A DNA stretch of 35,724 bases from Crocinitomicaceae bacterium (GTDB taxonomy: Bacteria; Bacteroidota; Bacteroidia; Flavobacteriales_D; Crocinitomicaceae): NCBI GenBank assembly GCA_022448165.1, contig JAKVAS010000021.1, forward strand, positions 1-35,724. The letters run 5' to 3'. This document shows, piece by piece, positions 23,557-26,596 of the stretch. The translations under genes were made by a program, and so were the position numbers. Below the pieces are notes generated by a model that searched no databases, had not been told where the DNA came from, and saw only the letters and a list, made by a program, of their open reading frames with translations. Each line of letters opens with the position of its first letter. Position 1 is the first letter of the stretch.

Positions 23557-24837
23557 ATGATGGGGAAAGTAATTGTAGGATTAGATATTGGGACCACAAA
23601 AATTGCGTGTTTTGTTGGACGTAGCAATGAACACGGGAAAATTGAGATTCTGTCTATGGGTAAGACTGAGTCTTTGGGTGTGATGCGTGGAATGGTTTCT
23701 AATATTGAAAAGACGATTCAATCCATTAATGGTGCAGTTGCTGAAGCGCAAGACCGTATCGAAGGAGAATTGAAAATCAATACTGTAAATGTTGGAATTG
23801 CTGGTCAACACATTAAGAGCATTCAGCATCGAGGAATTTATACCAGAACTGATTTAGATTCTGAGATCTCACAAAATGATATCAATCGTTTGGTAGATGA
23901 CATGTATAAAATGGCAATGCCTCCAGGTGAACAAATTATTACGGTATTACCACAAGAATATATTATTGATAACGAGCAAGGTATTAAGGATCCAATTGGA
24001 ATGTCCGGAGTACGTTTGGAAGCGAATTTTCATATCATTACGGGGAATGTTGGCGCATCTATGAATATTCATAAATGTGTTGAACGTTCAGGGTTGAAGG
24101 TTAAGGATATTATTTTAGAGCCAATCGCTTCCGCTGATGCTGTGTTAACAGAGGAAGAAAAGGAGGCGGGAATTGTATTGGTTGATATCGGTGGTGGTAC
24201 AACAGATGTAGCGATTTTCCATGAAGGAATTATTCGTCATACTGCTGTGATTCCATTTGGAGGGAATGTGATTTCTGAAGATATTAAGGAAGGATGTACT
24301 ATCATGAAACGTCAAGCAGAGAAATTGAAGCAGAAATTTGGTTCAGCATTGGCAAGTGAGAGTCAGGAGAATGAAGTGGTGGCGATTCCTGGTTTACGAG
24401 GACGTGCTCCAAAGGAGATTACTTTGAGAAACTTGGCGAGTATTATTCAAGCTAGAATGGAAGAGATCATTGATCTTGTACATTATGAAATACGTAATTC
24501 AGGTTACGAGAAAAAACTAATTGGTGGAATTGTAGTTACTGGAGGAGGATCGCAATTGAAACACATCACGCAATTGTTTGAATATGTTACAGGAATGGAT
24601 ACGCGACTTGGATATCCAACTGAGCATTTATCAAACACGAATAATGAAGCAATGATGAGCCCAATGTATGCAACAGGTATTGGCTTGGTGTTGAAAGGGT
24701 TTGAAGATTTAAAGAAAGAAACAACACCAGAAGCTGCTAGTACTGGTGATGTGAAAACACATTCAGAGAAAACACGAGGATCATTTTTTGATACAATCAT
24801 TAAGAAAGGAAAAACGTGGTTTGCTGAGGAGGATTAA
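23557..24837 (+). CDS. ftsA: Cell division protein FtsA
   Basis: VIVGLDIGTTKIACFVG, GIVLVDIGGGTTDVAIFHEG, GGIVVTGGGSQLKHI; C-terminal amphipathic tail. Confidence 0.98.
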   Translation: MMGKVIVGLDIGTTKIACFVGRSNEHGKIEILSMGKTESLGVMRGMVSNIEKTIQSINGAVAEAQDRIEGELKINTVNVGIAGQHIKSIQHRGIYTRTDLDSEISQNDINRLVDDMYKMAMPPGEQIITVLPQEYIIDNEQGIKDPIGMSGVRLEANFHIITGNVGASMNIHKCVERSGLKVKDIILEPIASADAVLTEEEKEAGIVLVDIGGGTTDVAIFHEGIIRHTAVIPFGGNVISEDIKEGCTIMKRQAEKLKQKFGSALASESQENEVVAIPGLRGRAPKEITLRNLASIIQARMEEIIDLVHYEIRNSGYEKKLIGGIVVTGGGSQLKHITQLFEYVTGMDTRLGYPTEHLSNTNNEAMMSPMYATGIGLVLKGFEDLKKETTPEAASTGDVKTHSEKTRGSFFDTIIKKGKTWFAEED

Positions 24838-24862
24838 GTGTTAGCTGAATCCTTAGAATAAT

Positions 24863-24997
24863 GGTCGGGGAGACCAGGTAGGTGAGAAGAAAGCGTAGCT
24901 TTCGATAGCCAAGCGAGAAGCTTGGGATGTTGAAAATGCTGAGCCGTAGCTCTCGATAATCAAGTGAGAACTTGAAAATTTAGGTACTGCGAAAGCA
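24863..24997 (+). ncRNA. Structured intergenic / ftsZ 5' leader element with tandem covarying double hairpins (putative)
   Basis: Six small hairpins in 135 nt: GGTC(GGGGA)GACC; GAAAGC(GTA)GCTTTC; CCAAGC(GAGAA)GCTTGG; GAGC(CGTA)GCTC; TCAAGT(GAGA)ACTTGA; TGC(GAAA)GCA. Copies 1 (24889-24925) and 2 (24941-24975) share loop/linker sequence but differ in stems by compensatory changes. Confidence 0.55.
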
Positions 24998-25036
24998 TGA
25001 TAAATTAAGACAAACAACAACTAATAAATAGAAAGA

Positions 25037-26596
25037 ATGGATTTTGAATTACCCAAAGGAGACAAAAAATCGATCATTAAGGTGATCGGTGTTGGTGGAG
25101 GCGGAGGGAATGCCGTAAACCACATGTATAATATGGGAATCAGAGGGGTTGATTTCGTAGTTTGTAATACAGATATACAAGCTTTACAGATCTCTTCGGT
25201 ACCGCACAAAATTCAACTTGGACCTTCATTGACGGAGGGAAGAGGAGCAGGGTCATTGCCGGAAATTGGAAAAAATGCTGCTGTTGAAAATATTGAAGAA
25301 ATTCGCGAGTACTTAAGTGAAGGGGCGAAAATGGTGTTCGTTACTGCTGGAATGGGTGGTGGAACAGGTACTGGTGCTGCTCCTGTTATTGCTCAAGTTG
25401 CAAAGGAATTAGGAATTTTGACTGTTGGAATTGTTACAGTACCATTTAATTTTGAAGGTCGTAAGCGTAGAATTCAGGCAGAAGAAGGGTTAGAGGCAAT
25501 GCGTCAGAATGTTGATACATTACTTGTGATTAATAACGAACGTTTACGTGAAATTACAGCGAATCTATCAGTAACAAGTGCATTTGCACAGGCGGATAAT
25601 ATTTTAGCTACAGCGGCAAAAGGAATTGCCGAAGTTATTGAAGTTACTGGATCAATAAATGTCGATTTTAACGATGTGAATACAGTAATGCGTGATAGTG
25701 GTGTTGCTATTATGGGTAGTGCAGCTGCTGAAGGAGATAACCGTGCATTGAAAGCAGTAAAAGAAGCATTGGAGTCTCCATTATTGAATGATAATGACAT
25801 TAGCGGTGCAGAATACGTATTGTTAAACATCACATATGGAGATCAAGAAGTCTTAATGGATGAAATCACGGATATCACGGATTACATTCAAGATGCTGCA
25901 GGATCAACTGCTGATGTAATCTTTGGACATGCAAAAGATGATGGATTAGGTGATAAAATTAGTGTAACAGTTATTGCTACTGGATTTCATTCATCTCCAT
26001 TAACGGGTTTTGAGAAAGCGCCTAAGCGCAACGTCACTACTTTAGAAGAAGATAAAGTAAACGAGATCAAAACACCAATGCAATCACCAACGCAACAAAA
26101 TCCTTGGGCGGGAGCCAAGGAGGTTAAAGCAGAGGAGGCACCAATGGATGAGCCATTCTTGAGATCTGAAGAACAAACAATCACAGATGCAAAGAAGGAA
26201 GAGCAAAAGGAAATGCAGTTTGATTGGAATAACCCTACAGCTAAAAAAGTAGAAGTTAAAGCTGATGAAGGTGTTAAGCGCTATGCGCTCGATGATGATT
26301 TTGAGGCAGGTGAAGAGTTAGATGCTACTGCAACAAGAACGGTGTTAACTCCCGAGGAGCAGCAGCGTCGTGCGCAAGAACGTTTGACAAGAATTCAGGA
26401 ATATACAAACAAGCTTAAAAGAGCGGATGGTATTCAAGAATTTGAGAATGAACCAGCATATGTTCGTCGCAAAATTCAATTGGACGAAACAATTCCAAGT
26501 AAAGAAGAAGCAACGGGTCGTTTTAGTATTTCAAAAGACGGAGACGATACGTCATTAAATAGCAATAATTCATTTTTACACGATAACGTAGACTAA
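25037..26596 (+). CDS. ftsZ: Cell division GTPase FtsZ
   Basis: [37 protein letters not shown]-terminal SKDGDD...[10 protein letters not shown] conserved tail. Confidence 0.99.

Follow-up and report, generated by a model that had tools for sequence, protein, structure and literature searches.

A tandem double-hairpin unit between ftsA and ftsZ in a Crocinitomicaceae bacterium: a probable copy of a dispersed, REP-like structured repeat

The window, meaning the whole 35,724-nt stretch of DNA analysed, belongs to an assembly of 3.39 Mb in 306 contigs, 86.5% complete, whose place in Crocinitomicaceae is indicated by relatives of its FtsZ. In it, ftsA and ftsZ are separated by 199 nt (24838–25036, + strand) lying between the FtsA stop codon (24835–24837) and the FtsZ start (25037). 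The spacer contains, from 5′ to 3′ and all on the + strand, a leading hairpin GGTC(GGGGA)GACC (24863–24875), two copies of a unit of two hairpins, P0 and P2, joined by a linker (24887–24925 and 24938–24975), a small hairpin TGC(GAAA)GCA (24988–24997) and a basal A-rich ftsZ leader beginning ACAACAACTAA (25004–25036), which is common to relatives and unaltered by the insert. The doubled composite unit and both flanking hairpins had been named in a preliminary description of the locus and were confirmed by direct reading of the sequence. The loop of the leading hairpin is similar to the RRGAA loops of second hairpins in the repeat family defined below; its membership of that family is uncertain.

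In copy 1 (stems and linker at 24889–24925), P0 is formed by GAAAGC (24889–24894), GTA and GCTTTC (24898–24903), followed by the linker GATAG and by P2, formed by CCAAGC (24909–24914), GAGAA and GCTTGG (24920–24925). Copy 2 (24940–24975) lies head-to-tail with copy 1 and comprises GAGC (24941–24944), CGTA and GCTC (24949–24952) as P0, the linker TCGATAA, and TCAAGT (24960–24965), GAGA and ACTTGA (24970–24975) as P2. The copies are spaced 51 nt apart, not 52 nt as first described, and the linker of copy 1, originally written with one C too many, reads GCTTTC-GATA; the tandem arrangement and the hairpins themselves stood. The 26-nt cores of the two copies are 85% identical, and the tandem core pattern gave 2 matches in the window vs 0.07 expected. 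From copy 1 to copy 2, stem B (in P2) has undergone two C-G to U-A swaps and a one-base loop deletion, and stem A (in P0) has kept its pairing through a one-base register shift and one A-U to G-C swap. When copy 1 was randomly mutated with an equal number of changes, the stability of stem A in copy 2 was kept in 0.8% of trials and that of stem B in 7.8%. The statement that stems vary with pairing kept, loops and linker being constant, was thus borne out, except that the register shift leaves stem A without clean column-for-column covariation.

When 24838–25036 was folded, as had been proposed, the minimum free energy of the spacer (−52.0 kcal/mol) lay below that of all 200 shuffles (−39.9 ± 3.7 kcal/mol; z −3.2). 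The minimum-free-energy structure contains an alternative helix of copy 1 on the + strand (24900–24935), in which UUUCGAUA (24900–24907) pairs with UGUUGAAA (24928–24935); it encloses P2, excludes P0 and resembles helix P1 of an element found between infA and rpmJ (see below). A possible long-range helix (24898–24996, + strand), GCUUUCG (24898–24904) with CGAAAGC (24990–24996), was read from the alignment of 24887–25007 to a model of that same element. It is followed by AUGAUAAAUUAA, in an arrangement like that of P1 and tail of the infA–rpmJ element, and its 3′ strand is overlapped by the TGC(GAAA)GCA hairpin. Hairpins downstream of a stop codon might indicate one or several intrinsic terminators in the ftsA–ftsZ spacer; this is extremely improbable, as no T-run follows any + strand hairpin and a scan gave no + strand terminator-like site, and a + strand terminator was rejected at the sequence level for that lack of T-runs.

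Three covariance models were used in searches for further copies. R1 was built from the two ftsZ-spacer copies alone, R2 from infA–rpmJ spacers alone, without any ftsZ sequence, and R3 from 12 sequences, of which the ftsZ and creD rows were admitted via R1, so that this alignment leans somewhat towards the structure. Copy 1 scored 54.6 bits with R1 and 53.2 bits with R3 and also matches the sequence pattern given below; copy 2 scored 35.8 bits with R3. Beyond its own two copies, R1 gave only four matches above 30 bits in 34 genomes, the next falling to 22.6 bits. Three of these were infA–rpmJ spacers (genomes G030, G019 and G011), directly after the infA stop codon, and the fourth, in the host genome, precedes a creD-like gene and is divergent from a gene for an ABC-F-type ATPase, both genes being named by eye from translations. 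In the fetched loci of about a dozen genomes, R1 matched immediately behind the infA stop codon. Reciprocally, the single match of R2 in the window was the ftsZ spacer (24887–25007, 32.5 bits, E 1.3e-4), with the central P3 part of the infA–rpmJ element absent; since the score is near coding-sequence noise across 240 genomes (E 0.012 genome-wide), this match was used only to test a place that had been named beforehand.

A BLAST search with the spacer detected no further copy in the host genome; the reading of the element as unique to ftsZ, to which this would have led, was overturned by the covariance model, BLAST being too insensitive. The model search, also proposed at the outset, found further copies in the host genome and in relatives. 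R3 detected additional dispersed sites, with about five or six loci of varying completeness in the host genome; the full two-hairpin form occurs at ftsZ (twice) and at creD, the remaining loci being clear in the first hairpin alone. About 10% of the host genome, read as stretches, held no additional full copy. Over the 12 members of R3, 94% of P0 and P2 cells are paired, 7 pairs have changed on both sides and the covariation score exceeds that of all 500 shuffles, which extends the preservation of pairing claimed for the locus to these family members.

The family was defined as P0, AAAGC-N3-5-GCTTTYGA, together with a P2 of variable stem; copy 1 fits exactly and copy 2 with variation. The unit is about 40–50 nt long and consists of P0 (AAAGC, a 3–5-nt loop that is usually GNA or GNNA, and GCTTT), YGA and P2, the loop of which is RRGAA in one subtype. 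The pattern AAAGCN{3,5}GCTTTYGA gave 202 matches in 34 genomes vs about 39 for the reversed control pattern; P0-like palindromes can also arise as terminators, which counts against a common repeat family. About 70 sites were read in context, most of them intergenic and several abutting or overlapping a stop codon. Gene contexts were ++ 18, −− 17, +− 16 and −+ 9, without orientation bias, in counts that exclude pattern matches falling within conserved genes (rplQ, aroC and others, identified by eye) and include some sites with uncertain gene calls. An RRGAA-loop hairpin at most 60 nt downstream of the first hairpin was present at 7 of 73 sites vs 0.11 in shuffles (maximum 2), each of the seven having a different stem. 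Tandem copies about 33–58 nt apart occur in several genomes (e.g. 52 nt in G023), and at a second locus of the host genome the copies are spaced 40 nt apart. The reciprocal model matches, the roughly 200 first-hairpin sites in 34 genomes and the tandem arrays elsewhere uphold the suggestion that the element belongs to a dispersed structured-repeat family.

At locus L277 (G000:C146, around position 1004), the preceding gene takes its stop codon from a repeat copy (AAAAAGCGTTAG), and this copy is itself duplicated in tandem at a spacing of 40 nt. Second-hairpin variants like GGGAACGGGAAGTGACC, often tandemly repeated, were seen at L310, L267, L340, L343 and L357; such variants would give tandem G-A mismatches between short stems.

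No Rfam family reached its gathering cut-off in the window, and at E up to 10 nothing relevant was returned in 24700–25200 or at the dispersed copies; these searches, which had likewise been proposed, ruled out a known RNA family as the identity of the ftsZ-spacer element. Literature searches yielded no description of the repeat. The S4-Flavobacteria leader (RF03141; PMC7247131) is a structured element of the same Flavobacteriia ribosomal-protein gene cluster and is present in the fetched loci that carry the infA–rpmJ copy, but there it is a distinct hairpin of 33 nt located over 1 kb farther downstream, and it matched neither the ftsZ spacer nor the infA–rpmJ element. The Alpha operon ribosome binding site (RF00140) belongs to the same operon region as the infA–rpmJ element, but gave sub-threshold matches only, downstream near rpsM and none at the infA–rpmJ or ftsA–ftsZ elements.

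The ftsA–ftsZ spacers of 30 genus genomes and about 60 further relatives were compared. The basal spacer is A-rich and about 20–45 nt long, the shortest spacers measuring 18 nt, and in many species an additional insert, from tens of nucleotides to about 200 nt long, lies between the ftsA stop and the A-rich leader. Inserts of different species could not be aligned with one another, models R1, R2 and R3 found no significant unit in the relatives' spacers, and the window unit was not conserved together with ftsZ among them. Because the relatives' inserts are unalignable and lack a significant model score, the unit at ftsA–ftsZ is specific to the host species within this sample. This bears on the proposal that the element is a dedicated structured 5′ leader of ftsZ, selected at this locus, in which RNA folding would tune FtsZ output. 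The position between ftsA and ftsZ in the orientation of ftsZ, the strong fold with hairpins slightly more stable on the + strand, and the alternative helices P0 and P1 in the spacer fold would suit such a leader; the other genus genomes, with spacers ranging from 18 nt to unrelated inserts, lack the unit, like units stand at other loci of the host genome, and copies elsewhere occur on either strand relative to genes. A dedicated leader as the reason for the element is thus rather improbable, and a specific ftsZ-tuning role, judged from sequence, is not favoured.

Other species carry inserts of their own at this site. Tandemly duplicated structured ftsA–ftsZ inserts were seen in G019 (L005/L054, units of about 55 nt) and at L120 (units of about 44 nt), which suggests that the site after ftsA tolerates structured inserts. 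The G019 insert, similar by eye, was rejected as a family member, being single-copy by BLAST and without R1 or R2 score. Inserts at L004, L015, L017, L024, L066 and L119 contain CTGAGGCTCTCGAAG / GAGCCTGTCGAGG-type sequences and look like another dispersed repeat.

The infA–rpmJ spacer measures about 80–170 nt in most genus genomes and 7–38 nt in the remainder. Its fold is built on helix P1, in which GYUUUYGAU pairs with AUYRAARGC; P1 is followed by GATTAAT and has P2 immediately inside it. In P1, 95% of cells are paired and 4 pairs have changed on both sides; in P0, which competes with P1 for a common strand, 88% of cells are paired and covariation is likewise seen. In an alignment of 17 related sequences, column 13 forms pairs both with column 7 (AU:7 GC:7) and with column 127 (CG:9 UA:5 UG:3). 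R2 finds the element in about 21 genomes, 17 of them its training set; mapped on an FtsA tree, the element is an ancestral feature of the genus that several clades have lost. An R2 scan of 240 genomes found no infA–rpmJ element outside the genus; matches in other genera of the family lay inside coding sequence and were discarded. The structured infA–rpmJ RNA of L186, L164, L184, L174, L189 and other loci is about 105 nt long, has two mutually exclusive covarying helices and is not in Rfam; it is a candidate ribosomal-operon regulator in its own right. A spacer of about 250 nt between rpsM and rpsK in G019 (L266, positions about 961–1215) holds several similar hairpins (CTGAACTGAAAGTTCAG, TTAAGCGGAAAGCTTAA).

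The ftsZ spacer resembles this element in P0 and P2, in a possible P1 of 7 perfect base pairs and in its 3′ tail. A two-state RNA regulator common to the infA–rpmJ operon, ftsZ and creD might therefore be considered, in which GCUUUYG would pair either with upstream GAAAGC (P0) or with downstream CRAAAGC (P1), the choice being made by a ligand, perhaps a ribosomal protein, and division would be coupled to ribosome synthesis. Common columns of P0 and P1 that both covary in infA–rpmJ spacers, the ancestral standing of that element and its resemblances to the ftsZ spacer all speak for it. Both the switch and the common regulator are nevertheless quite unlikely: a single species has the element at ftsZ, P1 and the 3′ tail are missing from most dispersed copies, which stand in either orientation, the covariation comes from 17 related sequences only, and the overlap of P0 and P1 is also explicable by one conserved palindrome plus one helix. 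It is very doubtful that an undescribed two-state RNA leads the rpmJ operon in the genus and was recruited in tandem before ftsZ (and creD) in the host species, which would place FtsZ synthesis under a ribosomal signal as well.

Hairpin arrays at 5′ ends are able to protect mRNA. An intercistronic processing or stability element might accordingly decouple a downstream gene from its upstream neighbour (ftsZ over ftsA, the rpmJ operon over infA), and at both of the sites where the element is best preserved it separates a stop codon from a downstream operon gene. As a general account, read from sequence features, this is unlikely, since copies occur in co-directional, convergent and divergent contexts alike.

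A closer parallel is offered by REP elements, palindromic repeats whose GTAG and CGTC tags define the described superfamilies, CGTC repeats having been reported from Bacteroidetes (PMC3733652). Like REP elements, the family consists of short stem-loops that are dispersed between genes, genus-restricted and of moderate copy number, found singly and in clusters, with complementary stem changes within families (PMC3733652). In contrast, the ftsZ-type unit contains two hairpins, and the family has no constant GTAG or CGTC tag, the stem-adjacent sequences varying among GATAG, GATAA, GATAT, GAAGAC and GATTGG. The dispersal of short intergenic palindromes (202 vs about 39 in the control) is also shared with REP elements that have a RAYT. 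A Y1 (RAYT-like) transposase gene in the host genome (L149, G000:C101:28875-29084, minus strand) has CAGTAGCAGTTGCACTGCTGCG-type hairpins on both sides, and this locus is a REP-like system distinct from the repeat at ftsZ. A RAYT/REP origin of the ftsZ repeat via this transposase was not supported, its flanks holding no AAAGC..GCTTT. No mobilising enzyme was identified for the repeat; that gene is the sole Y1 transposase found in the incomplete host assembly. Type III toxin–antitoxin RNA arrays also consist of short structured RNA units placed head-to-tail; the likeness of layout is a resemblance only, and here ftsA and ftsZ directly flank the array, with no toxin gene adjoining.

Taken together, the ftsA–ftsZ element is probably a copy, lineage-specific and duplicated in tandem, of a dispersed REP-like structured-repeat family of one Crocinitomicaceae genus. 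A passive REP-like repeat is preferred to a gene-specific cis-regulator because of the even orientation, the species-specific places, the tandem growth and the insertion next to stop codons. Such a repeat would spread passively, its folded single strand being recognised and copied by some factor, and would expand in tandem by slippage. The ftsA–ftsZ copy would represent an insertion between the FtsA stop codon and the A-rich leader of ftsZ, the older of the two. The copy is presumably co-transcribed with ftsZ, and its hairpins may incidentally have a modest influence on how the mRNA is processed or on its stability. The infA–rpmJ copy, being ancestral, oriented and covarying, is probably functional as RNA and was probably recruited to serve the ribosomal-protein operon as an RNA element. 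The interpretation in the preliminary description is, as a whole, partly supported: preservation of pairing, there read as selection on RNA or DNA secondary structure, is real, and at the infA–rpmJ copy an RNA function is likely, but in dispersed copies preserved pairing may stem from selection at the RNA or the DNA level, from selection on the fold as copies are made, or from repair templated by the hairpin.

A caution follows for similar loci, in that 'covarying' stems of paralogous tandem hairpins at one locus are not proof of a regulator there. The finding at ftsZ opens onto a repeat family with a fixed fold, fixed loops and changing stems, which is relevant to the spread and expansion of small structured repeats in bacteria without classical REPs of such a sort. 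The conserved, undescribed structured RNA between infA and rpmJ is a concrete candidate for a new regulator of a ribosomal operon.
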